A DNA stretch of 64,000 nucleotides from Pedococcus dokdonensis (GTDB lineage: Bacteria; Actinomycetota; Actinomycetes; Actinomycetales; Dermatophilaceae), in the NCBI RefSeq assembly GCF_900104525.1, contig NZ_LT629711.1, forward strand, positions 3,410,001-3,474,000, read 5' to 3'. Under the pieces are notes generated by a model that worked only from the letters and a program-made list of their open reading frames with translations, was not told the DNA's origin and did not search any database. Below are positions 4,840-64,000 of this stretch, piece after piece (within the stretch, counting starts at the first letter, position 1; the number at the start of each line of letters is the position of its first letter). Both the position numbers and the translations under genes were made by a program.

Positions 4840-7062
4840 CTATCGAGCGCGGGACGGTGTGCCGGGGTGGCTGGGCCACCAGAACCGCTCACCGAGCACG
4901 GTGACCAGGGCCGGGACGACGATGCTGCGCACCACGAGCGTGTCGAGCAGCACCCCGAACCCGACGATCACCCCGATCTGCGCGAGCTGGACGAGCGGCA
5001 GCACCCCCAGCACCGCGAAGACCGCCGCGAGGAGGATCCCGGCGCTGGTGAAGACGCCGCCGGTCACGGCCAGCGCGCGCACGATGGCCTCACGGGCGGG
5101 TTGTCCCTCGGCGGCCTCCTCGCGCGCCCGCGTGGTGAGGAAGATGTTGTAGTCGACGCCGAGGGCGACGAGGAACAGGAAGGCCAGCAGCGGCGTGGAG
5201 ACGTCGAGCGGTGGGTAGCCGAGCAGGTGGCTGAAGGCGAACCAGCTCGCCCCCATGCTGGCGACGTAGGTCGCGAGCACGGTTGCCACGAGGACGACCG
5301 CGGCCACGACGGACCGCAGCAGGAGCAGCAGCACGACGAGGACGATCCCGAGGATGACCGGGAAGAGCAGGAGGCGGTCGCGGTCGGCCGTCGCGCGCGC
5401 GTCGAGCAGCTCCGCGTCGCTGCCCCCGACCTTGGCCCCGGCTCCGTCGACCGCCGCCCGCAGTGACTCGACCTGGTCGAAGGCTGCGCTGCTGCCCGGG
5501 GCCCCCTCGAGGACCACGCTGAGCTCGGTCCACCTGGCGTCGGCTGCGCCGGGCCGGGCGGTGGAGACCCCGTCGACCGCCTCGACCGTGCGCCGCACCT
5601 CGGTGGCGCGACCGCTGGGTGCGATGACGACGGCCGGCTCGCCGCTGCCGGCCGGGAAGGCCTTGGCGAGCTGCTCCTGCCCCACCACGGCTTCCGGCTT
5701 GTCGAGGAACTGCTCGGTCGGGGTCTGGCCGATGGCCAGGCCCACGCCACCTGCAGTCAGGGCCCCGAGCACCAGCACGGCGGCCACGCCGACCGTGACC
5801 GGTCGGCCGGTCACGGCATCACCCACCCGGCGCCAGAGGCCGGTGCGGCTGGGGTCCTCCTGGCCCATCCGTGGCACGAACGGCCAGAACAGCCGCCGGC
5901 CGAACAGCACCATCGCGGCTGGGAGGACCAGCAGCGCGTAGGCGAGCGCGACCACGATCCCCAGCGCACCGGCATACCCGAGGGAGACCACGAAGCGGTC
6001 GTCCGCGAAGCCGAGGCTCAGCAGGGCGAGCACCACCGTGCTGGAGCTGGCCAGGATCGCCGGCGCCGCCGACGCCAGGGCTCGGCGCATCGCGTCGTGG
6101 CGGTCGTCGACACGACGGAGCTCCTCGCGGTAACGGGCGATGAGGAGCAGGGCGTAGTTGGTGCCGGCACCGAAGACGAGGACGGAGACGATGCCCTTCA
6201 CGGCACCGTCGGCGCTCACCTCCGAGAAGCGGCTGAGGATGTCGATGCCCCTGCTGGCGACCTGGTCGCCGACGCCCACCACGCTGAGCGGCACGAGCCA
6301 GAGCCAGGGACTGCGGTAGGTCACGAGGAGCAGGAGCGCGACGACCCCGGCGGTCGCACCCAGCAGCCGGACGTCCGCACCGTCGAACACCTTGCCGATG
6401 TCGGCGGTGAAGGCCGGACCGCCGGTCACGCTGGCGGTCAGCCCCTCGGGCAGGCCGTCCCGCACCGCCGCGCGCAGGGCGTCGACGGCCTTGCCGTTCA
6501 CCTCGTCGGAGACGTCGGACGAGAGGGGCACGAGGGCGAGGGCGGTCCCGCCGTCCTCGGAGACCTGCGGCTTCGCGCCGCCCGGCCCGCCCGGCCCGGC
6601 CTGGTCGCCCTGGTCGCCCGGCCCGCCCTGCCCGCCCGGCGCGGCCTGGGCGCCAGGGCTGCGGGGGGCCGCACCGGCCGCGGACACGGCCTTCGACGCA
6701 CGCTCGGTCGCCTCGACCACCGCCCGTTGGTCGGCCTCGGTCAGCGGACCGTCCGCGCGTGACACGACCAGGATGGCCGGCGCCACGCCGCTGGCGGGGA
6801 GGGTGGCCTGGAGGGCAGCCACCTCGGCCGACTCGGCCGAGTCGGGCAGCGAGTTCTGGCCGGGGGCGACCTGGCCCGCTCCGGCGAAGGCGAAGGCGGC
6901 AGCCGAGACCAGCACCGCCACGACGACCACGAGCCACTTGACCCGTGGGCCGACGAGGTGGCCGAGTGCGCGCCCGGCGGGTGAAAAGAAGCCGTGCGGG
7001 TCGCGTCGGGCGCTGTGGGCGGTCGCGTCGAGCGAGTCGTCTCCATTGTGGAACATTTCCAT
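4840..7062 (-). CDS. MMPL-family RND transporter
   Basis: This 740-residue protein is a typical actinobacterial MMPL exporter. An N-terminal membrane helix (about residues 43-62) is followed by an extracytoplasmic domain, a block of five or six helices, a second extracytoplasmic domain and a second helix block. A Gly/Pro/Gln-rich, collagen-like insert lies in the first extracytoplasmic domain at about residues 130-165. MMPL proteins export lipids or hydrophobic drugs using the proton gradient; the substrate is unknown. ATG 7062 has TAGTGT ending 7 nt upstream on the minus strand and no Shine-Dalgarno. It is divergent from a MarR gene only 23 bp away, and the palindromic operator covers its first codons, so MarR control is very likely. 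Confidence 0.9.
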   Translation of the reverse strand: MEMFHNGDDSLDATAHSARRDPHGFFSPAGRALGHLVGPRVKWLVVVVAVLVSAAAFAFAGAGQVAPGQNSLPDSAESAEVAALQATLPASGVAPAILVVSRADGPLTEADQRAVVEATERASKAVSAAGAAPRSPGAQAAPGGQGGPGDQGDQAGPGGPGGAKPQVSEDGGTALALVPLSSDVSDEVNGKAVDALRAAVRDGLPEGLTASVTGGPAFTADIGKVFDGADVRLLGATAGVVALLLLVTYRSPWLWLVPLSVVGVGDQVASRGIDILSRFSEVSADGAVKGIVSVLVFGAGTNYALLLIARYREELRRVDDRHDAMRRALASAAPAILASSSTVVLALLSLGFADDRFVVSLGYAGALGIVVALAYALLVLPAAMVLFGRRLFWPFVPRMGQEDPSRTGLWRRVGDAVTGRPVTVGVAAVLVLGALTAGGVGLAIGQTPTEQFLDKPEAVVGQEQLAKAFPAGSGEPAVVIAPSGRATEVRRTVEAVDGVSTARPGAADARWTELSVVLEGAPGSSAAFDQVESLRAAVDGAGAKVGGSDAELLDARATADRDRLLLFPVILGIVLVVLLLLLRSVVAAVVLVATVLATYVASMGASWFAFSHLLGYPPLDVSTPLLAFLFLVALGVDYNIFLTTRAREEAAEGQPAREAIVRALAVTGGVFTSAGILLAAVFAVLGVLPLVQLAQIGVIVGFGVLLDTLVVRSIVVPALVTVLGERFWWPSHPGTPSRAR

Positions 7063-54950: not shown

Positions 54951-55002
54951 GTCGACATCGTGGGCCACCTGGCCGCGACCCGCCAGAGCGGCCGGCGACC
55001 GC

Positions 55003-55827
55003 TCAGTAGCGGGAGAGATCCAGCTGCGCCAGGACCGCGGTCGCGTCCGGCTGCAACGTGATGGTGCGCCAGCCGGACTTCGTGCGACGCCCGCACAGCT
55101 GGTCCCGCGTGGCGAGGCCGGGACAGACGACGTTGCGGACCCCCGCCCCCTCGACCTCCACGACGACCGGCAGCTTGCTGAGGCTGTCGTCTGTGGCGAT
55201 CGGCGGCAGGACGACCAGCGCCCGGCCCGGGGTGGACGGCTTGCTCACCGTCGCCGCACCGGTGAGGCGGTAGCGCAGCTCCACGGAGAGCGGGGCGTTG
55301 GGCAGCAGCACGCGCCCCCCGGTGGCGATCGAGTCGGTCTGCTGGGGCAACCGCTGTCCGTCCGAGAGGACTTCGAGGTCGGCGATCCGGACATCCGGTG
55401 GCCGGGCGCCGCTGACGACGCCCTTCAGCACCGGTAGGTCGACCTGCAGGCCGGTCGAGGCGCCGAGGAAGCGGATCTGCTCGACCACCTCGAGCGTTCC
55501 GTCGGGACGCGGGGTCACCTGCACGTGCACGCCCGGCTCGGTGCGGCCCGGGTCCGCGGCAGCGGGTCGCGCGGTGGTCGTGCTCGGCGCCGCCGGCGAG
55601 GCGCGGACCGGAGTCGGCGTGGGGCTGCCGTCGAGCCGGCGGACCGCGACCGTCGCCACCAGGGCGAGGACCGCGATGACGGCAAGGGCGGCGCCGATGG
55701 CTGGCCACACCCGGCGTCTCGAAGGCCGGCGTCGTGGCGGCGCGGGGACCCGTGCGGCCCACGCCAGCAGGACGTCGGTGGAAGAGGGCCGTCCACCTCC
55801 GGTGCCCGGCCCCTGTGCCTGGCTCAT
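55003..55827 (-). CDS. Single-pass membrane protein of unknown function
   Basis: A 274-residue protein. A Pro/Arg-rich cytoplasmic segment (residues 1-42) precedes one helix (AIGAALAVIAVLALVATVAV). A Pro/Thr/Ser-rich linker follows, then an extracytoplasmic beta-rich domain with a pair of cysteines near the C-terminus (NVVCPGLATRDQLCG). I do not recognise the domain. ATG 55827 has GAGGGG 8 nt upstream, preferred over GTG 55836. It lies divergent from the DUF4397/sortase pair, so a shared envelope role is possible. Confidence 0.75.
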   Translation of the reverse strand: MSQAQGPGTGGGRPSSTDVLLAWAARVPAPPRRRPSRRRVWPAIGAALAVIAVLALVATVAVRRLDGSPTPTPVRASPAAPSTTTARPAAADPGRTEPGVHVQVTPRPDGTLEVVEQIRFLGASTGLQVDLPVLKGVVSGARPPDVRIADLEVLSDGQRLPQQTDSIATGGRVLLPNAPLSVELRYRLTGAATVSKPSTPGRALVVLPPIATDDSLSKLPVVVEVEGAGVRNVVCPGLATRDQLCGRRTKSGWRTITLQPDATAVLAQLDLSRY

Positions 55828-55984
55828 GCGATCCACCCCTCGCCGGTGGGTTACGAGTATGTGCAGGTCAGAGCCGTTCCGACAGCCCTGGAGTCGGATT
55901 TACGCCATTTGCATGAGCGCCTGGGGAGGCCGCGGCCGCATCATCGGAGCGTCTGGTCTTCGGGGACCGCAGGGAGGCATGACG

Positions 55985-56929
55985 ATGCAGGCTCGTCACG
56001 GTCGAGGGGTGCTGTCGCTGTTCGTGGCGGCGTCGGTCTCGTGGGGCGCGACGGGCGTCGCGGTGGCGGCGGGCCCCCAGCTCCCGGCAGGCCCCGCGGC
56101 TGTCGGTGCCACGGCGAAGGGGTCCCTCTACGTCATCCAGGGTGTCGACGCCACGACGATGACCCTCAGCCTGGACGGCAAGGTCCTGCGGACCGCGGCT
56201 CCCGCCAAGACGGTCCTGGGTCCGCTGTCGGTGGCCCCGGGTCGCCACACGCTCAAGGCCGAGCCGGCTGGCGGCGGGCCCGCGGTCGAGGCGACAGTGA
56301 CGGTGCAGGGCGGCGCAAGTGCCGACGTGGTCCTGCACCGCCAGGCCGACGCGACCCTCGCCCCGGTGTTCACGACCTACAAGAACGACCTGTCGCCGGT
56401 GACAGCCGGCAGTGGCCGGCTCGCCGTCGCGCACACCGCTGCCGTCGGACCGGCCGACATCCGCGTCAAGGGCGAGGTGCTGTTCAGCAACGTCGCGAAC
56501 GGTGAGCAGCTCTCGCTCACGGTGCCGCGCGGCAGCTACCCCGTCGACATCGTGCCCACCGCGAGCACCGCGCCGGTGGTGTTCGGCCCGGTCGACCTCC
56601 CGGTCGCCGCGGCTTCGCTGACCCGGGTGTTCGCGATCGGGGTGGCGGCGACCGACTCCATGGACGCGGTCGTGCAGGTCCTGCCCATCGCCACGCGTGG
56701 GTCCGGCGCCGACGTGAGCCGGGTCGACGCTGGCAGTGGCGGTCAGGCCCAGGCCCTCATCGCCGCCCACCGCGCGGGCGTCCCTGACTCCGGCGGCCAG
56801 CCGCAGTGGTGGCTCCCCTTCGCGCTGGCCGCCGGGCTCGCCGGGCTCCTGGTCGCCGTGGGGGTCCGGCTCGCGGCCAAGTCGGTGCCGGTGCCGGTGC
56901 GCGTCGACGCCAGGCGGCGGCGCTCCTGA
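55985..56929 (+). CDS. Secreted DUF4397-domain protein with sorting-signal-like C-terminus
   Basis: A 314-residue exported protein. A signal peptide of about 29 residues ends near AVAAGPQ. The DUF4397 domain follows (GSLYVIQGVDATTMTLSLDG). The C-terminus has VPDSG, then a hydrophobic helix (WWLPFALAAGLAGLLVAVGV) and an Arg-rich tail. This has the layout of a cell-wall sorting signal in which VPDSG stands where LPXTG would be. ATG 55985 is used because GGGAGG lies 7 nt before it; ATG 55979 is too close to that site. The next gene encodes a class F sortase, the likely partner. Confidence 0.82.
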   Translation: MQARHGRGVLSLFVAASVSWGATGVAVAAGPQLPAGPAAVGATAKGSLYVIQGVDATTMTLSLDGKVLRTAAPAKTVLGPLSVAPGRHTLKAEPAGGGPAVEATVTVQGGASADVVLHRQADATLAPVFTTYKNDLSPVTAGSGRLAVAHTAAVGPADIRVKGEVLFSNVANGEQLSLTVPRGSYPVDIVPTASTAPVVFGPVDLPVAAASLTRVFAIGVAATDSMDAVVQVLPIATRGSGADVSRVDAGSGGQAQALIAAHRAGVPDSGGQPQWWLPFALAAGLAGLLVAVGVRLAAKSVPVPVRVDARRRRS

Positions 56930-56958
56930 CCGCGCCCCGGTCGCGCCCGGCCACCACG

Positions 56959-57657
56959 GTGGCCCGCGTGGCCCGCGTCGTCCTCGTGGTCCTCTGTGGC
57001 AGCTCGCTCGCCGCCTGCGGCGGACCGGCCGAGGCGCAGCGTGGTGGGCCGGCCACGGCGAGCTCGGCGGCGGCGTCCGGCCCGGCAACCACGGCTGCGT
57101 CACCGTCCGGCGAGGGCGCAGCCGGTGATCCGAGGACCCCGCCCCCGGCGGGGGTCGGTCGCCCAGCGGCAAGCCAACGGCTCACCTTCGCCCCGGAGCG
57201 GATCCGGCTCAGCTCGGACGGCGGGGCGTCGGCACCCGTGCAGCGGGTCGACACCGGTGCGAGCGGCGAGCTGGAGCTGCCGGCCGACCCCGGGGTCACC
57301 GGCTGGTGGGTGAGCGGCGCGCTCGCGGGCGAGGTATACGGGAGCGTGGTGCTCGCCGGGCACATCGACTCGCGCGAGCGGGGGATCGGCTTCTTCGCCA
57401 AGCTGCTCAACGCATCGCCCGGCGACCGGATCGAGCTGACCGGGCGGGGCCTGACGCAGACGTACGTGGTGCGGACCAACAAGGAGGTCGACAAGGGCGC
57501 CCTCTCCACTAGCACCGACATCTTCGACCGCTCTGTGCGGGGCCGGCTGGTCCTGCTCACCTGCACGGGCAGCTTCGACCCGCGGACCCGGCACTACGAC
57601 CACAACCTGGTCGTCACGGCATACCCGGTCGGGGTGCCGCGGCTTGCCAAATCCTGA
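56959..57657 (+). CDS. Class F sortase, predicted lipid-anchored
   Basis: A 232-residue cysteine transpeptidase. From GTG 56959 the N-terminus is a lipoprotein signal with lipobox SLAAC (Cys20), then a disordered Ala/Ser/Pro linker and the sortase domain (about residues 85-230). The triad is His135 (LAGHID), Cys202 (LLTCTG) and probably Arg211. Class F sortases attach surface proteins in actinobacteria. It begins 29 bp after the DUF4397 gene. Other start codons are possible because the frame is open further upstream, but GTG 56959 yields a clean export signal. Confidence 0.85.
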   Translation: MARVARVVLVVLCGSSLAACGGPAEAQRGGPATASSAAASGPATTAASPSGEGAAGDPRTPPPAGVGRPAASQRLTFAPERIRLSSDGGASAPVQRVDTGASGELELPADPGVTGWWVSGALAGEVYGSVVLAGHIDSRERGIGFFAKLLNASPGDRIELTGRGLTQTYVVRTNKEVDKGALSTSTDIFDRSVRGRLVLLTCTGSFDPRTRHYDHNLVVTAYPVGVPRLAKS

Positions 57658-57716
57658 CCAACCAGGACAACCCAGGGCCTTGTGGGCAGACGCCGGACGT
57701 AGGTAAGTTCCGTTGT

Positions 57717-57753
57717 GACCGCTTCTATGGTGAATGGTTCACACAAAGCGGTC
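57717..57753 (+). promoter_or_regulatory. Nested inverted repeats upstream of nagZ
   Basis: GACCGCTT at 57717-57724 pairs perfectly with 57746-57753. Inside it GTGAA-TGG-TTCAC (57730-57742) is a second perfect 5-bp inverted repeat. The A+T-rich core stands out. It is a candidate operator for the MurR/RpiR regulator encoded downstream, or a leader hairpin. Confidence 0.45.
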
Positions 57754-57783
57754 GTGCTCGCTCGTCGGCTCTTGGAGGTCCGG

Positions 57784-59613
57784 ATGTCCAGCTCAGCCCT
57801 GTCCCGCCGCACCGTCGTCGCCGGTGGCGTCGCCGTCGGGATGCTCCTCGCCGGAGCCGGTGCCGGCCTCGCCACGGCGGCGCCGTCCGTGCCCGCCCCC
57901 TCGGCCTCCAGTGGCCCAGGGCGGGGCTGGGTCGCCTCGACGATGGCGCACATGACGCTGGAGGAGAAGGTCGGCCAGCTCTTCGTCCAGAACGTCTACG
58001 GCAAGGACGCCACGACGCCCGATGCCCGTAACATCCCGCTGTACGGCGTGGCCAGCCCGGCCGAGGTGGTGCAGAAGTACCACCTCGGTGGCGTCATCTA
58101 CTTCGCCTGGACCGACAGCGTCCAGAACCCGCCCCAGATCGCCGCCCTCTCCAACGGGCTGCAGAAGGCCTCGCTCACCCAGGACCGCAAGGTGAGGATC
58201 CCGCTCCAGGTCGCCACCGACCAGGAGCAGGGGGTGGTCACGCGGATCGGCCCGCCGGCCACGCAGTTCCCGGGCTCGATGGCCCTCGGCGCAGGCCGGT
58301 CCACGGCCGACGCCCGCACGGCCGCCGCGATCACCGGCCAGGAGCTCAAGGCGATGGGGGTCAACACCAACTTCGCTCCCGACTCCGACGTCAACGTCAA
58401 CGCGCTCAACCCGGTGATCGGCACCCGCTCGTTCTCCTCCGACCCCTCGCTGGCAGCGAGCATGGTCGGCGCCCAGGTGCAGGGTTACCAGGACGACGCC
58501 GACATCTCCTCGTCGGCCAAGCACTTCCCGGGGCACGGCGACACCGCCACCGACAGCCACGTGGCGTTCCCGATCATCACCCACACCCGGCAGGAGTGGG
58601 AGCAGGTCGACGCCCCGCCGTTCAAGAGCGCGATCGCGCATGGCATCGACATGATCATGACCGCGCACCTCAACTTCCCCGCGCTCGACGACTCCGGTGA
58701 CCCGGCCACGCTGAGCAAGCCGATCATGACCGGCCTGCTGCGGGGAGAGCTCGGCTACAAGGGAGTGATCATCACCGACTCCCTCGCGATGCAGGGGGTG
58801 CGGGACCTCTACGGCGACGCCGAGGTCGCGGTCCGCGCCCTCGACGCGGGCGTCGACCAGCTGCTCATGACGCCCGCCATGGACGACGCGTATGCCGCGG
58901 TGCTGGGTGCCGTGCGCAGCGGACGGATCAGCCGGGCCGACCTCGACGCCAAGGTGCGTCGCGTGCTCGAGCTCAAGGTGCGGCGGGGCCTCGTCGCCCA
59001 CCCGTACGTCGACGCGGACGCGCTCGACCAGGTGGTCGGCACCCCGCAGCACCTGGCCACGGCCGATGCCATCACCGACCGCACGACGACCCTCGTCAAG
59101 AACGACACCGCGACCCTCCCCATGGCGGTCTCGGGCAAGAAGGTGCTCGTCACCGGCTACGGCGTCGCGACGACGCAGACGCTCGCCGACGGTCTCGCGG
59201 CCGAGGGCGCGGCGACCACCGTGAAGCAGACCGGTAGCGCGCCGAGCGACACCGCCGTGGCGGAGGCCGTCGCGGCCGCGGAGGGCAAGGACGCGGTCGT
59301 CGTCACGACGATGAAGGCCTGGGACAAGGCGGTCACCGACCCGAACGGCGGCCAGCAGAACCTGGTCAAGGCGCTGCTCGCGACCGGGAAGCCGGTGGTC
59401 GTGGTCGCGACCCGCGACCCCTACGACATCGCCTACTTCGCCGACGCGCCGACCTACCTCGCCACCTACTCCTACAGCCCCGTCGCGATCCAGTCGGTGG
59501 CCCGGGTGATCACGGGTGCGGTGCGGCCCACCGGCAAGCTCCCCGTCGACATCCCGGTGGCCGGGGACCCGGCCACGGTGCTCTACCCCTTCGGGCACGG
59601 CCTCACCTACTGA
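57784..59613 (+). CDS. nagZ: Secreted GH3 beta-N-acetylhexosaminidase (NagZ-like)
   Basis: A 609-residue GH3 enzyme predicted to release terminal GlcNAc from peptidoglycan fragments. A twin-arginine-like signal (SRRTVV) and hydrophobic stretch end near residue 33. The NagZ hallmark loop KHFPGHGDT (residues 246-254) contains the His251-Asp253 acid/base dyad, and the nucleophile is Asp332 (TDSLAM). A C-terminal GH3 domain (about 430-609) is present as in B. subtilis NagZ, unlike the short E. coli enzyme. ATG 57784 follows GGAGG by 5-6 nt. It heads the muropeptide cluster. Confidence 0.9.
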   Translation: MSSSALSRRTVVAGGVAVGMLLAGAGAGLATAAPSVPAPSASSGPGRGWVASTMAHMTLEEKVGQLFVQNVYGKDATTPDARNIPLYGVASPAEVVQKYHLGGVIYFAWTDSVQNPPQIAALSNGLQKASLTQDRKVRIPLQVATDQEQGVVTRIGPPATQFPGSMALGAGRSTADARTAAAITGQELKAMGVNTNFAPDSDVNVNALNPVIGTRSFSSDPSLAASMVGAQVQGYQDDADISSSAKHFPGHGDTATDSHVAFPIITHTRQEWEQVDAPPFKSAIAHGIDMIMTAHLNFPALDDSGDPATLSKPIMTGLLRGELGYKGVIITDSLAMQGVRDLYGDAEVAVRALDAGVDQLLMTPAMDDAYAAVLGAVRSGRISRADLDAKVRRVLELKVRRGLVAHPYVDADALDQVVGTPQHLATADAITDRTTTLVKNDTATLPMAVSGKKVLVTGYGVATTQTLADGLAAEGAATTVKQTGSAPSDTAVAEAVAAAEGKDAVVVTTMKAWDKAVTDPNGGQQNLVKALLATGKPVVVVATRDPYDIAYFADAPTYLATYSYSPVAIQSVARVITGAVRPTGKLPVDIPVAGDPATVLYPFGHGLTY

Positions 59614-59663
59614 CCGCGCTCGCCACCCACCCGACCACACCCGGCCACGATCGGACGACCGCC

Positions 59664-60968
59664 ATGACCCATGTCAACCGCCGCACGCTCCTCACCGCCG
59701 GGGCCGGCGCTCTGGCCGTGCCGCTCGCCGCGGCCGGTGCCCGCGCTGGCGAACCTGCCGGCCACCCCAGCGCGCCGTCCCGCAAGGTCACCACCGGCGC
59801 CCAGCGGGAGGCCGCCAACGGGTGGGCGACCCTGGCCGGTCAGAAGGTCGGGATCATCACCAACCCCACCGGGATCCTCACCAACCTCCGGACCATCGTC
59901 GACGAGATGCACGAGGCCGGCACGGTCGACATCGTCGGGGTCTTCGGGCCCGAGCACGGCTTCCGTGGCACGGCGCAGGCGGGCGACTCCGAGGGCACCC
60001 ACACCGACCCGCGGACCGGCCTGACCGTCTACGACGCCTACGGCGCCAACGCCGCGAAGATGGAGCAGCTGTTCCGCACCGCCGGGGTCGAGACCGTGGT
60101 CTTCGACATCCAGGACGCCGGGGCGCGGTTCTACACCTACATCTGGACCATGTACACGGCCATGCGCGCTGCGGTCGCGACCGGCTCGAGGTTCGTCGTC
60201 CTCGACCGGCCGAACCCGACTGGCGGGACGGCGCGCGGGCCGATGATGACCACCGCCTACACCTCCGGCGTGGGGGCCAAGGAGATCGTCCAGGCACACG
60301 GCATGACGGTGGGTGAGCTGGCGCGCTACTTCGACGCGGAGTTCCTTCCCGCGGACGCGGGTGGCCGCCTCGCGGAGCTGTCCGTCGTCGAGGTCCGTGG
60401 CTGGCGGCGTGACATGCCGTATGCCGCGACCGGCCTCCCGTGGGTCATGCCCAGCCCGAACATGCCGACGCCCGACACCGCGCTGGTCTATCCGGGGACG
60501 GGGATGTTCGAGGGCACCAACCTGTCGGAGGGGCGGGGTACGACGCGCCCGTTCGAGCTCGTGGGCGCGCCGTACGTCGACTACCGCTTGGCGCAAACCC
60601 TTGCGGCGCGGGAGATCCCGGGTGTGGGTTTCCGCGAGGCGTACTTCACGCCCACGTTCAGCAAGCACCTCAACAAGGTCTGTGGCGGGGTGCAGGTGCA
60701 CATCACGGACCCGGCTGCGTTCGACCCGCTGCGGGTGGCCGTCGAGATGCTCGTCGCCGCGAGGTCCACCTACGCGGACTTCGCCTGGCGCGTCGACAAC
60801 GACCCGCGGCCCTACTGGATCGACAAGCTGAGCGGGTCGACCCGGCTGCGCGAGCAGGTGACCGCAGGCGCCTCGGCCGACGAGGTGGTCGGGGCATGGG
60901 CCGACGAGCTGGCCGCGTTCAACCGCCGTCGCGCCCAGTACCTCATCTACCGCGGCCCAGCCGCCTGA
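59664..60968 (+). CDS. namZ: Secreted exo-beta-N-acetylmuramidase (NamZ/DUF1343)
   Basis: A 434-residue DUF1343 protein. A twin-arginine-like signal (NRRTLLTAGAG) precedes the Rossmann-like domain with GVFGPEHGFRG, FDIQDAGARFYTY and LDRPNPTGG, and the C-terminal part with MPSPNMPTPDTALVYPGTGM. In B. subtilis the homologue YbbC/NamZ removes non-reducing terminal MurNAc from glycan strands. Paired with the adjacent NagZ it could trim peptidoglycan chains residue by residue outside the cell. It starts 50 bp after nagZ. Confidence 0.9.
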   Translation: MTHVNRRTLLTAGAGALAVPLAAAGARAGEPAGHPSAPSRKVTTGAQREAANGWATLAGQKVGIITNPTGILTNLRTIVDEMHEAGTVDIVGVFGPEHGFRGTAQAGDSEGTHTDPRTGLTVYDAYGANAAKMEQLFRTAGVETVVFDIQDAGARFYTYIWTMYTAMRAAVATGSRFVVLDRPNPTGGTARGPMMTTAYTSGVGAKEIVQAHGMTVGELARYFDAEFLPADAGGRLAELSVVEVRGWRRDMPYAATGLPWVMPSPNMPTPDTALVYPGTGMFEGTNLSEGRGTTRPFELVGAPYVDYRLAQTLAAREIPGVGFREAYFTPTFSKHLNKVCGGVQVHITDPAAFDPLRVAVEMLVAARSTYADFAWRVDNDPRPYWIDKLSGSTRLREQVTAGASADEVVGAWADELAAFNRRRAQYLIYRGPAA

Positions 60969-60970
60969 CG

Positions 60971-62707
60971 TTGGGTGCGAAGACGTTGCGTACCAGAGGA
61001 TCTGCTGCCCTGGCCGTCTGCGCCACGCTCGTCGGGGGCCTGTTCGTGACCGCCACGCCGGCCAGTGCCGAGGACTTCAGCAAGCCGTTCCACGGCTTCG
61101 CGCCGCCCACCACCGTGCTGCGGGACGGGTCGCCGGCGTCCGTCGGCCTCGACCCGGCACCCATCGCGGCTGCGGTCGCCCAGGTCCGCGGTCACGAGTC
61201 CGCCCCGCCCGACGGGCACCCGATGTATGCCGGTGCGGTGGGCCTGATGGGCCACGACGGCAAGGTCGTGGAGCGTGACGCCAGCGGCTGGGCGTTGCGC
61301 TACGCGGACGCCACGACCGAGCTCCCGCGCGACCAGTGGGTGCCGATGCGCGACGACACCGTCTTCGACCTGGCCTCGGTCTCCAAGCTCTTCACCTCGC
61401 TGGCGGTCACCCAGCTCGTCGAGGAAGGCAAGGTCGAGCTCGAGAGCCCGGTCGCGACCTACCTGCCCGAGTTCGCGGCCAACGGCAAGGAGGCGGTGAC
61501 GGTCCGGCACCTGCTCACGCACACCTCCGGGTTCACCTCGTGGTTGCCGCTGTGGAGCAAGTACCCCGACAAGGCGTCGCGGATCAAGGCGGTGATGGAC
61601 CAGCCGCTCACCAACCCGGTCGGCAGCACCTACCTCTACAGCGACCTCAACCTGATCACGCTCGGGGTCCTGGTGGAGCGGCTGCGCGGCGAGCCGCTCG
61701 ACCGCGTGGTCGCCGAGCGCATCACCGCGCCGCTGGGCATGTCGAAGACGGGCTACAACCCGATCGACCGCACCCGCACCGCCGCGACCGAGTACCAGAG
61801 CGCCCCCGCCCGCGGGATGGTCTGGGGCGAGGTGCACGACGAGAACGCGTGGTCGCTGGGCGGCGTGGCCGGTCACGCCGGTGTCTTCTCCACGGCCGAC
61901 GACCTCGCCGTCCTCAGCCAGGCCCTGCTCAACGGCGGCACCTATCGCGGGCACCGGATCCTCAGCCGTGACAGCGTGACCGCTCTCATCACGAACTTCA
62001 ACGAGGCCTTCCCCGGCGACGACCACGGCCTCGGCTTCGAGCTGAACCAGCGTTGGTACATGGACTCCTTGTCCGGACCGCGCACCGCCGGGCACACCGG
62101 CTACACCGGCACCTCCATCGTCATCGACTTCAGCTCCCGCTCCTTCGCGATCCTGCTGACCAACCGGGTGCACCCCTCGCGCAGCTGGGGGAGCAACAAC
62201 CTCGCCCGTCGTGAGTGGGCCGGAGGCCTGGGACAGGCGCTGCGCGTGCGACCCGCTGTCGGCGCGACGGCGTGGTCGGGAGGGGCCGCCAACGCCGCCA
62301 CGCACACCCTCACCACGCCGTCGGTGGCGGTCCCCGCCTCGGGTGCGCGGCTCGGGTTCGACCTCTTCCTCGACACGGAGGAGACCGACCTGCTCACCCT
62401 CGAGCGCTCGACCGACGGCGGCGCCACCTGGCAGCCCCTGCCGTTCACCACCCGCGACCGCGGTGGGGAGAGCGCGAGCGACGGCACCGTGTCCGGCACC
62501 CGCGACCGGCACTGGCTGCAGGCGCGGGCCGACCTCCCCCCCGGGGCGCAGCAGCTGCGGTGGCGCTACACGACTGACGCGACCAACCTCGGCCGGGGCG
62601 TCTACGTGGACGGCATCCGCCTCACCGCGGGTCGCGCCGTGCTGCTCGACGCCGAGAAGTCGCCCACCCTGCTCACCGCAGACGGCTGGACCCTCCGGTC
62701 CCGGTGA
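60971..62707 (+). CDS. Secreted AmiE-like serine hydrolase with extra C-terminal domain
   Basis: A 578-residue serine beta-lactamase-fold enzyme. A Sec signal peptide ends at ATPASA-ED. Active-site motifs are SVSK (Ser136, Lys139), YSD (Tyr223) and HTG (His375). The homologue in the B. subtilis cluster, AmiE, is an N-acetylmuramoyl-L-alanine amidase, so peptide removal from MurNAc is the best guess; a DD-peptidase is the alternative. Residues from about 432 form a separate beta-rich module (for example RLGFDLFLDTEET and LERSTDGGATWQPLP) not needed by AmiE. The start is probably TTG 60971, 2 nt after the namZ stop; TTG 60986 is possible. Confidence 0.82.
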   Translation: MGAKTLRTRGSAALAVCATLVGGLFVTATPASAEDFSKPFHGFAPPTTVLRDGSPASVGLDPAPIAAAVAQVRGHESAPPDGHPMYAGAVGLMGHDGKVVERDASGWALRYADATTELPRDQWVPMRDDTVFDLASVSKLFTSLAVTQLVEEGKVELESPVATYLPEFAANGKEAVTVRHLLTHTSGFTSWLPLWSKYPDKASRIKAVMDQPLTNPVGSTYLYSDLNLITLGVLVERLRGEPLDRVVAERITAPLGMSKTGYNPIDRTRTAATEYQSAPARGMVWGEVHDENAWSLGGVAGHAGVFSTADDLAVLSQALLNGGTYRGHRILSRDSVTALITNFNEAFPGDDHGLGFELNQRWYMDSLSGPRTAGHTGYTGTSIVIDFSSRSFAILLTNRVHPSRSWGSNNLARREWAGGLGQALRVRPAVGATAWSGGAANAATHTLTTPSVAVPASGARLGFDLFLDTEETDLLTLERSTDGGATWQPLPFTTRDRGGESASDGTVSGTRDRHWLQARADLPPGAQQLRWRYTTDATNLGRGVYVDGIRLTAGRAVLLDAEKSPTLLTADGWTLRSR

Positions 62708-62736
62708 GCGCGTCACCGACGCCGTACGGTAAGCCC

Positions 62737-63630
62737 ATGCCATCGCGCGATCGGGGCCCCGAGGGCTCGGCGACCACAGTCCCGCTGCTGGTGCGGCTCC
62801 GGGGGATCCGACCGTCGCTGTCGCCGGCCGAGGACCGGGTCGCCGAGAAGGTGCTCGACAACCCTCGTGGGGCAGCGTCCCTGACGATCAGCGAGCTGGC
62901 AACGGCGGCAACGACATCCGAGACGACGGTGCTGCGGTTCTGTCGGCGTCTGGGGCTGCCGGGGTATCCCCAGCTGCGGCTCGCGCTGGCCGAGGAGAGC
63001 GCCCAGCCGCGCTCGACCGGCGCCCAGGACACGGACATCAGCGCCAAGGACACCATCGACGACATCATCGCCAAGGTGGCCTTCACCGATGCCAGCGCTG
63101 TCGAGGAGACCGCCCAGCAGCTCGACCGCGAGGCGCTCGCCGCCACTGCAGCGGCGATCGCGGCGGCCGGCCGGGTCGATGTCTACGGGATCGGGGCGAG
63201 CGCGGTCGTCGGCATCGACCTGCAGCAGAAGCTGCACCGCATCGGCGTGGTCGCCTTCGCGTGGAACGACCCCCACATCGCGCTGACGAGCGCGACCCTG
63301 CTGGGCAAGGGCGACGTCGCCATCGGGATCTCGCACTCCGGCACCACGTCAGAGACCATCGAGGCGCTCGAGCTGGCCAGGGAACGCGGGGCCGCGACCG
63401 TCGCGATCACCAACTTCCCGCTGTCGCTGCTGGCCGCCCGGGCCGACCACCTGCTCACCACGGCAGCGCGCGAGACCAGCCTGCGCTCGGGTGCGACGGC
63501 GAGCCGGATCGCCGCGCTGACGATCGTCGACTGCCTCTACATCGCGGTCGCGCAGCGGCACCTCTCCCGGGCTCGGAAGGCCGTCAAGGAGACCCGCGCT
63601 GCCGTCGCCAGCCACCACCTCCTGCCCTGA
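62737..63630 (+). CDS. murR: MurR/RpiR-family regulator with SIS domain
   Basis: A 297-residue regulator. The N-terminal RpiR helix-turn-helix (SELATAATTSETTVLRFCRR) occupies about residues 15-90. A SIS sugar-phosphate-binding domain follows (VYGIGASAVVGIDLQQKL and GISHSGTTSETIEAL). In this context the ligand is probably MurNAc-6-phosphate. ATG 62737 has TACGGT ending 6 nt upstream (leaderless), allowing its own promoter. GTG 62704 overlaps the preceding stop as GTGA and would add 11 residues by coupling. Both may be used. Confidence 0.88.
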   Translation: MPSRDRGPEGSATTVPLLVRLRGIRPSLSPAEDRVAEKVLDNPRGAASLTISELATAATTSETTVLRFCRRLGLPGYPQLRLALAEESAQPRSTGAQDTDISAKDTIDDIIAKVAFTDASAVEETAQQLDREALAATAAAIAAAGRVDVYGIGASAVVGIDLQQKLHRIGVVAFAWNDPHIALTSATLLGKGDVAIGISHSGTTSETIEALELARERGAATVAITNFPLSLLAARADHLLTTAARETSLRSGATASRIAALTIVDCLYIAVAQRHLSRARKAVKETRAAVASHHLLP

Positions 63631-63639
63631 CCGACCGCA

Positions 63640-63775
63640 CTTCTGGCCACTCGTGCGGGGTGGGAGGGCTCCCCTTCTGGCTACTGATGCGGGGTGGGAG
63701 GGCTCCCCTTCTCGCTACTGGTGCGGGGTGGGAGCGCTCCACTTCTGGCCACCGGTGCGGGGTGGGAGCGCTCCG
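63640..63775. repeat. Four 34-bp tandem repeats between murR and murQ
   Basis: Units start at 63640, 63674, 63708 and 63742, each beginning CTTCT and containing GTGGGAG. The array is flanked by an inverted pair: GCACTTCTGGCC (63637-63648) and GGCCAGAAGTGC (63800-63811). It starts 9 nt after the murR stop, so it may form a long terminator-like structure. Not CRISPR: there are no spacers. Confidence 0.85.
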
Positions 63776-63832
63776 TTCGCCCCAACACCCAGCATGGTCG
63801 GCCAGAAGTGCTGTTGTTACTCATTCACATTC

Positions 63833-63861
63833 TTGACGGACATTCCGTAGGAAACTAACCT
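63833..63861 (+). promoter_or_regulatory. Leaderless murQ promoter
   Basis: TTGACG (63833-63838), a 17-bp spacer and TAACCT (63856-63861), followed by 6 nt and GTG 63868. This is a textbook primary-sigma promoter for a leaderless mRNA. Confidence 0.75.
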
Positions 63862-63867
63862 CGCGGT

Positions 63868-64000
63868 GTGAGCAGTGACGTGAGCGTGAGCGCGCCGACC
63901 GAGGAGCGCCACCCGGGGACCACCTCGATCGACACCGAGTCGACCCTCGACATCCTCGTCCTGCTCAACGACGACGACGCCAAGGTCGCGCCGGCCGTGG
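63868..64000 (+). CDS. murQ: N-acetylmuramic acid 6-phosphate etherase (N-terminal part)
   Basis: Forty-four residues are visible before the window ends. The stretch STLDILVLLNDDDAKVAPAV, preceded by TSIDTEST, matches the conserved N-terminus of MurQ, which cleaves the lactyl ether of MurNAc-6-phosphate to GlcNAc-6-phosphate and lactate. It follows murR and has its own leaderless promoter. The remaining SIS domain must lie beyond the edge. GTG 63880 is an alternative start. Confidence 0.8.
   Translation, partial: MSSDVSVSAPTEERHPGTTSIDTESTLDILVLLNDDDAKVAPAV

Follow-up and report, generated by a model that had tools for sequence, protein, structure and literature searches.

How does N-acetylmuramic acid (MurNAc), released from wall fragments outside the cell, reach the etherase MurQ as MurNAc-6-phosphate in a bacterium that lacks the usual transporter for it? 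The question is raised by a muropeptide salvage cluster at the end of a 64,000-nucleotide stretch of Pedococcus dokdonensis DNA (hereafter the window: bases 3410001–3474000 of a single 3.94 Mb contig, with positions counted from 3410001 as 1). A preliminary description of the window had listed genes for NagZ, NamZ, an AmiE-like enzyme, MurR and MurQ in that order, and had guessed that a transporter other than the phosphotransferase system (PTS), together with a kinase, lay just past 64 kb. Domain and family models find all five genes as ordered, and the guess was right: the MurQ operon continues past the window edge into a sugar-type (CUT1) ATP-binding cassette (ABC) importer and a BadF-type kinase. 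Nine genes, all on the plus strand, run from 57784 to past the window end (L003 is the stretch past the edge; an L003 coordinate plus 63000 gives window numbering):

57784–59613, plus strand: NagZ-type GH3 beta-N-acetylglucosaminidase with a twin-arginine-like signal, predicted exported (domain and structure match)
59664–60968, plus strand: NamZ-type exo-beta-N-acetylmuramidase with a twin-arginine-like signal, predicted exported (domains)
60971–62707, plus strand: AmiE/YfeW-like serine hydrolase, predicted exported, with a Beta-lactamase fold and a C-terminal InhA-like MAM domain (start uncertain, TTG at 60971 or 60986)
62704–63630, plus strand: MurR-like RpiR regulator (HTH_6 and SIS), overlapping the AmiE-like gene by 4 bp
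63868–64827 (L003 868–1827; in-window part 63868–64000), plus strand: MurQ, MurNAc-6-phosphate etherase (family model)
L003 1827–3116, plus strand: solute-binding lipoprotein, SBP_bac_1 (115.9 bits; LAAC lipobox in the translation)
L003 3113–4012, plus strand: permease 1, BPD_transp_1 (domain match)
L003 4009–4899, plus strand: permease 2, BPD_transp_1 (domain match)
L003 4913–5857, plus strand: BadF-type sugar kinase, BcrAD_BadFG (domain match)
L003 6481–6568, minus strand: tRNA-Ser, about 0.6 kb past the kinase

The MurQ stop overlaps the binding-protein start, the binding-protein gene overlaps that of permease 1, and the two permease genes overlap each other; the kinase starts 13 bp 3' of the second permease. 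The nagZ gene itself stands as first described, but its start does not: the earlier position of about 57717 corresponds to an upstream in-frame GTG at 57715, and the gene begins at ATG 57784, behind GGAGG.

We consider it probable that these nine genes form a muropeptide salvage system in which digestion takes place outside the cell and monosaccharides pass through the CUT1 importer to the kinase and MurQ. Exported NagZ would remove N-acetylglucosamine (GlcNAc) from wall fragments, the AmiE-like hydrolase would remove the stem peptide, and NamZ would release MurNAc, still outside the cell. The lipoprotein-type importer (binding protein and two permeases) would carry free MurNAc, perhaps GlcNAc too, inward, powered by a shared MsiK-type ATPase encoded elsewhere. 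The kinase would then make MurNAc-6-phosphate, and probably GlcNAc-6-phosphate too, and MurQ would cleave MurNAc-6-phosphate to GlcNAc-6-phosphate and D-lactate.

The enzymes and the MurQ route are of kinds already known, and the cluster is a Bacillus-type set in which MurP is replaced. The B. subtilis cluster murQ-murR-murP-amiE-nagZ-ybbC (PMC5061867) shares homologues of MurQ, MurR, NagZ, an AmiE-type enzyme and NamZ. However, a CUT1 importer and a separate kinase stand here in place of the MurP PTS, and the gene order read from our models differs, as had already been said of the window; murQ here starts right behind a promoter-like stretch. The T. forsythia set murT-murK-murQ is likewise PTS-independent, with MurNAc uptake by a symporter, a separate MurNAc 6-kinase and MurQ (PMC5790795). 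Unlike that set, the cluster has ABC genes rather than MurT beside MurQ, and its kinase is closer to the MurK of Clostridium than to that of T. forsythia. No MurT-type symporter is among the uptake genes beside MurQ, which are ABC permeases and a binding protein; the rest of the genome was not searched for symporters.

ABC importers have been tied to wall recycling elsewhere. Uptake of muropeptides has been shown for Agrobacterium YejBEF-YepA (PMC9790009), and M. tuberculosis UspC, of UspABC, binds amino sugars, muramic acid weakly (thermal shift of 3.5 degrees), and has a proposed role in recycling (PMC4929945). YejBEF is, however, a peptide-type importer; the passages on UspC do not mention murQ, and the passages on either system do not show import of free MurNAc. 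S. coelicolor SCO4305–SCO4308 also includes an actinobacterial MurR-MurQ pair, and MurNAc is recycled there without a MurP ortholog (PMC5061867); that account of the pair identifies no uptake system and gives two neighbours as of unknown function. A 2026 mycobacterial preprint calls the transporter unknown (PMC13041923), and we found no CUT1 importer for MurNAc in actinobacteria in the open-access literature, which leaves out most subscription papers. The cluster names a testable importer and kinase candidate for MurNAc uptake in bacteria without the usual MurNAc transporter, with implications for how actinobacteria reuse their own wall material or exploit lysed neighbours.

The three cutting enzymes are recognizable by their domains. 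NagZ has GH3 N and C domains (286.6 and 81.3 bits), and its best solved-structure match is B. subtilis YbbD/NagZ (3bmx, E 6.6e-92, KHFPGHGDTATDSH aligned). NamZ matches NamZ_N at 244.6 bits (cut-off 26.9) and NamZ_C at 189.1 bits (cut-off 25). The AmiE-like protein combines a Beta-lactamase domain (224.6 bits) with the InhA-like MAM domain; by sequence alone an amidase and an esterase are indistinguishable, and its best NCBIfam model is PBP4B/YfeW at 184.7 bits, under that model's cut-off of 385. The yfeW gene sits in the E. coli murQ operon (PMC5061867). Export signals had been claimed for all three, two twin-arginine-like and one Sec-like, and we see them too, by eye and with a hydrophobicity script rather than SignalP: twin arginines followed by a hydrophobic stretch in NagZ (SRRTVV) and NamZ (NRRTLL), and a Sec-like signal at the N-terminus of the AmiE-like protein.

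The frame at 63868 is MurQ, as first proposed, because it scores 359.2 bits against NF003915 (cut-off 168) and its best solved-structure match is a MurQ (4s12, E 1.7e-77). Against TIGR00274 it reaches 297.8 bits, just below the cut-off of 302. NagS, a MurQ-related GlcNAc-6-phosphate dehydratase of Streptomyces, was set aside as its identity on these model scores; NagS forms a clade separate from MurQ and is reported only in Streptomycetaceae (PMC12680351).

The transport genes have the features of a CUT1 system: an SBP_bac_1 lipoprotein and two BPD_transp_1 permeases (115.9, 82.4 and 65.0 bits), and no ATPase gene of their own. One UgpC/MsiK-type ATPase over cut-off is encoded in the genome, 0.84 Mb from the cluster, with no CUT1 permease or binding protein within the 18 kb around it. 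A subunit shared between importers would be expected to be encoded alone in this way, far from CUT1 genes. AlphaFold models the binding protein poorly (mean predicted local distance difference test 56.4), and the model was left out of structure searches.

For the kinase, the best solved match by sequence is MurK of Clostridium acetobutylicum, a MurNAc/GlcNAc kinase. Fold comparison also puts Clostridium MurK first, tied in one program with a hexokinase, with 18–19% identity over the fold alignments; the cluster protein is likewise a sugar kinase, and its specificity is predicted. Clostridium MurK acts on both MurNAc and GlcNAc (PMC5790795). The absence of a PTS, previously claimed from the window, extends to the whole genome, in which PTS_EIIC (MurP/NagE superfamily) has no match; the same search was positive in 7 of 14 control genomes, including B. 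subtilis and E. coli. AnmK has no match in the genome either. Among BadF-type kinases, that of the cluster is alone in exceeding the curated cut-off; one further match is partial and falls below it. MurQ needs MurNAc-6-phosphate and, with no other over-cut-off BadF kinase, no AnmK and no EIIC, the cluster kinase is the best candidate for its source.

Is the linkage conserved? We compared 198 genomes of the order and 396 of the phylum. MurQ is over cut-off in 70 of the 198 and NamZ in 33. The preliminary description had staked its reading on co-occurrence in relatives; all 33 genomes with NamZ have MurQ over cut-off, against 37 of the 165 without it. Neighbourhoods of up to 20 kb were annotated around 79 of 81 MurQ places over cut-off, which with the window makes 80 loci; a MurQ place at a contig edge in genome G136 was read later, outside the 80-locus counts. 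Neighbour roles came from profiles trained on the window genes and refined on the loci, where gene starts are approximate, and Pfam runs covered 20 neighbour frames, one without a match. The association tests below treat loci as independent; related loci are not, so that the Fisher p-values are too small.

The binding protein was followed by profile searches independent of MurQ, with scoring limited to the top 8 or 4 first-look candidates of each genome. At least 11 of the 198 order genomes are positive, and at least 7 of the 396 phylum genomes exceed 500 bits, including the window's own and three from families outside the order. In all three, MurQ adjoins the binding protein and permeases; two of the three contain, in addition, an AmiE-like gene and both NagZ and NamZ bearing export signals. 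Weak relatives (210–230 bits) occur in four phylum genomes (G373, G308, G242 and G325); in the two that were read, G373 and G308, no MurQ lies nearby. G063 has a second binding protein at 455 bits. One scan of genome contigs yielded one locus, in Microbacterium mitrae.

A tree of 43 binding proteins places the window protein in a clade of 15 members (clade A, support 97/86). A related clade of 13 (clade B, support 97/98) is also found beside MurQ. The tree does not show the two to be sisters, and several of its sequences, including that of the window, are flagged by the program as unusual in composition. Clade A adjoins muropeptide genes in 15 of 15 loci, three of its members coming from families outside the order, and a whole MurQ gene lies in the same block in 12. 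In G133 the end of MurQ lies about 42 bp away, at the contig end; in G136 the locus stops at the contig end; and G093 has MurR, NamZ and AmiE with no MurQ in the 14 kb read. The system is real and conserved.

The two clades differ sharply in their company. None of the clade A loci contains AnmK (0 of 15, a few being read over short stretches), against 12 of the 13 clade B loci (Fisher 4e-7), and 10 of the 13 hold a NagZ in which no export signal is seen. By gene content, clade B loci would fit import of GlcNAc-anhydroMurNAc, and clade A loci import of MurNAc with its reducing end still present. Clade A has near-invariant arginines at Arg47 (14/15), Arg100 (15/15) and Arg386 (15/15); clade B has Thr at the first site (13/13), is gapped in the alignment at the second and lacks Arg at the third (one Lys). 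One of these arginines could hold the lactyl carboxylate, a hypothesis for which the poor binding-protein model gives no placement, and all three are targets to mutate.

Downstream of the clade A operon of Microbacterium mitrae, and of those of two relatives, lies a flavin adenine dinucleotide (FAD)/iron–sulphur (Fe-S) 2-hydroxy-acid dehydrogenase that could use D-lactate, the other MurQ product. An FAD-oxidase plus 4Fe-4S dehydrogenase (with CCG too in one of two scanned) occurs in 11 of the 80 order murQ loci as well as in Microbacterium mitrae; the loci include L004 (9796–12597), L074, L089, L058, L060 and L062.

Several findings weigh against a tight coupling of these parts or against the proposed salvage system. 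Nine order loci have exported NamZ and NagZ; the clade A importer adjoins five of them and the kinase six, leaving four without a clade A importer nearby. G016, of the same genus, has NagZ, NamZ, AmiE, MurR and MurQ, but the tRNA-Ser seen here comes next and the importer–kinase block is missing at that place; G146, of the same family, keeps the kinase without the importer; no clade A match was found elsewhere in either genome among the best 8 candidates scored per genome. In G055 and G040 neither importer nor kinase accompanies the exported set and MurQ, G055 having another CUT1 set, not clade A, about 6 kb further on. The parts can thus be separated. The window's genome also contains 35 first-look binding-protein candidates, among which another importer for the sugar may lie. 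NagA, needed downstream, is a sub-threshold match (195.6 bits, cut-off 225.65). The dehydrogenase of other clusters has no close relative in this genome (best 36% over 275 residues), and it is named by its domains only, the GlcD and 2-hydroxyglutarate dehydrogenase NCBIfam models being far below their cut-offs. Finally, the kinase has Asp144 at the place of T. forsythia MurK Ser133, where small residues are said to be needed for the lactyl group; in our motif alignment Ser133-Pro134-Leu135 of that enzyme corresponds to Asp-Gly-Trp. The equivalent of Asp144 is present in 43 of 44 related kinases, among them ones beside AnmK, so it is no argument for a preference for MurNAc.

One alternative account we regard as unlikely: the importer and kinase serve GlcNAc freed by NagZ, or a chitobiose-like disaccharide, and MurNAc reaches MurQ through another importer and kinase. 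The best NCBIfam models would suit it, being NgcE, a GlcNAc/chitobiose binder, for the binding protein (74.7 bits) and NagK for the kinase (39.7 bits), both far below cut-offs of 399.65 and 370. Since there is no PTS EIIC in the genome, GlcNAc too needs a non-PTS route; related kinases stand in 22 AnmK loci, where a GlcNAc kinase would suffice; and G016 and G146 retain MurQ without the importer. However, importer and kinase lie inside the murQ gene block, with overlapping genes, and beyond the order, too, members of the binding-protein clade accompany MurQ. Moreover, clade A is never found with AnmK, and GlcNAc-dedicated genes would leave no over-cut-off BadF kinase, AnmK or PTS EIIC to feed MurQ.

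The loci also differ in where digestion would take place. Among 15 NamZ-bearing MurQ loci, nine have export signals on NagZ and NamZ and six have a NamZ lacking one. A peptide-type ABC importer (SBP_bac_5) is adjacent in five of the six loci with unexported NamZ and in none of the nine with exported NamZ (Fisher 0.002); the clade A importer is adjacent in five of the nine. This pattern argues against a further account, in which the importer takes up GlcNAc-MurNAc or MurNAc-peptide, pieces larger than MurNAc, and the exported enzymes serve chiefly to remodel the wall of the cell itself. Oligosaccharides are frequent ligands of CUT1 binding proteins, and the related clade B, with its unexported NagZ and its AnmK, looks as expected of a disaccharide importer. 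Yet all three cutting enzymes in the window carry export signals and the cluster has no other NagZ, and we judge import of a larger piece improbable. That an unrelated sugar importer lies beside a wall-recycling operon by chance is scarcely credible: CUT1 importers are abundant (the 31 genomes listed have from 9 to 87 first-look candidates each), but the genes overlap and the same linkage recurs in the 12 clade A loci with whole MurQ, three of them in families outside the order.

NamZ and AnmK are found together in 0 of the 80 loci (15 with NamZ, 32 with AnmK, 33 with neither; Fisher 2e-4), one of the AnmK loci, L101, being matched only in part, at the border of the DNA read. G012, G059 and G182 each have one NamZ locus and one AnmK locus. 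On the broader reading given next, this mutual exclusion would mean that hydrolytic and lytic-transglycosylase fragments go to separate loci, even in one genome.

Beyond the salvage of free MurNAc in the window, a broader reading seems to us evenly poised: muropeptide salvage in Actinomycetota may consist of matched sets built on MurQ, with the place and manner of cutting deciding the importer. In one such set, NagZ, NamZ and AmiE would be exported and would work with a MurNAc/GlcNAc kinase and with CUT1 importers of a new, MurNAc-specific family, whose arginine-rich pocket would hold the lactyl carboxylate. A second would pair unexported NagZ and AnmK with the related CUT1 importer for GlcNAc-anhydroMurNAc. 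Other sets might be unexported NamZ with a peptide-type importer, an SSF symporter with AnmK, and a PTS with MupG. The simple rule suggested is that the place of digestion is linked to the kind of importer.

The other loci hold further combinations. L037, L051, L053, L054 and L055 have an unexported NamZ beside a peptide-type ABC importer, with a double-GNAT-like gene close by in all five; no kinase or AnmK that could supply MurNAc-6-phosphate was found in their stretches. SSF sodium:solute symporters lie beside MurQ in 14 of the 80 loci, all in other genomes of the order (L066, L057, L058 and 11 more), together with AnmK and a BadF kinase and, in 12, a GntR-type regulator; this set is perhaps for anhydroMurNAc. 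L041, L044, L038 and L061 combine a peptide-type importer, AnmK, MurQ and an AmiE-like gene with an enolase-superfamily gene (L-Ala-D/L-Glu epimerase-like by our own reading), as for whole muropeptides. In two genomes of one genus a NagZ domain and then a MurQ domain share one open frame on the minus strand (L106 9417–12017, 867 residues; L107 9426–11765, 780 residues). No export signal is seen on either frame, and the fusion ties a predicted unexported NagZ to MurQ.

How might the nine genes be controlled? Probably they form two transcripts. Three features stand out in the non-coding DNA:

57704–57743, plus strand: conserved elements 5' of nagZ, with TAAGTT at 57704–57709 (possible -10) and the palindrome GTGAATGGTTCACA at 57730–57743, a possible MurR operator
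63640–63774, plus strand: 34-bp tandem repeat in four copies between murR and murQ (sequence)
63816–63861, plus strand: promoter-like stretch 5' of murQ, with an operator-like site at 63816–63829, TTGACG at 63833–63838, a 17-bp spacer and TAACCT at 63856–63861

MurR is the obvious candidate regulator from its position and family, and it would control both transcripts through a common palindrome. Its RpiR HTH and SIS domains are found; the MurR model NF012026 gives 112 bits (cut-off 408). In all six loci read from the window's family (f1), the DNA upstream of nagZ contains TAAGTT, or in one case TAACTT, and after it the palindrome GTGAATnGTTCACA or a sequence close to it, and in the window a similar palindrome precedes both nagZ and murQ. 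TTGACG-N17-TAACCT is identical 5' of murQ in four of the six (G000, G104, G118 and G146). Between the end of TAACCT and the murQ start codon lie 6 bp, a spacing suggestive of a leaderless transcript. A sigma-70 consensus scan gave no site at either promoter-like stretch; we name them on conservation between relatives.

The palindrome at murQ can be found from nagZ sites alone. A matrix trained only on these, run over 83 kb of the cluster's own chromosome, ranked the site in front of murQ next best after the training site and one unrelated site at 7048, its top site in this DNA. With leave-one-out matrices over about 20,000 positions, the best site near murQ ranks 1, 1 and 2 in G062, G146 and G104; in G118 the rank is 3, but the site is elsewhere and covers the presumed -10, and the G016 site is weak (rank 7). 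The nagZ pattern occurs once in the 3.94 Mb genome at up to one mismatch, and the reversed control also once. Of 23 loci from other families scanned with the matrix, most had no convincing site next to these genes, which makes the operator a family-level result.

Rfam has no match within window positions 55000–64000. The four 34-bp repeats are about 90% alike, fill most of the gap between murR and murQ and are absent elsewhere in the window; in the relatives read this gap is shorter. Directly 5' of nagZ lies a class F sortase-like gene (56806–57657; Sortase domain 48 bits; NF033748 77.4 bits, cut-off 166).

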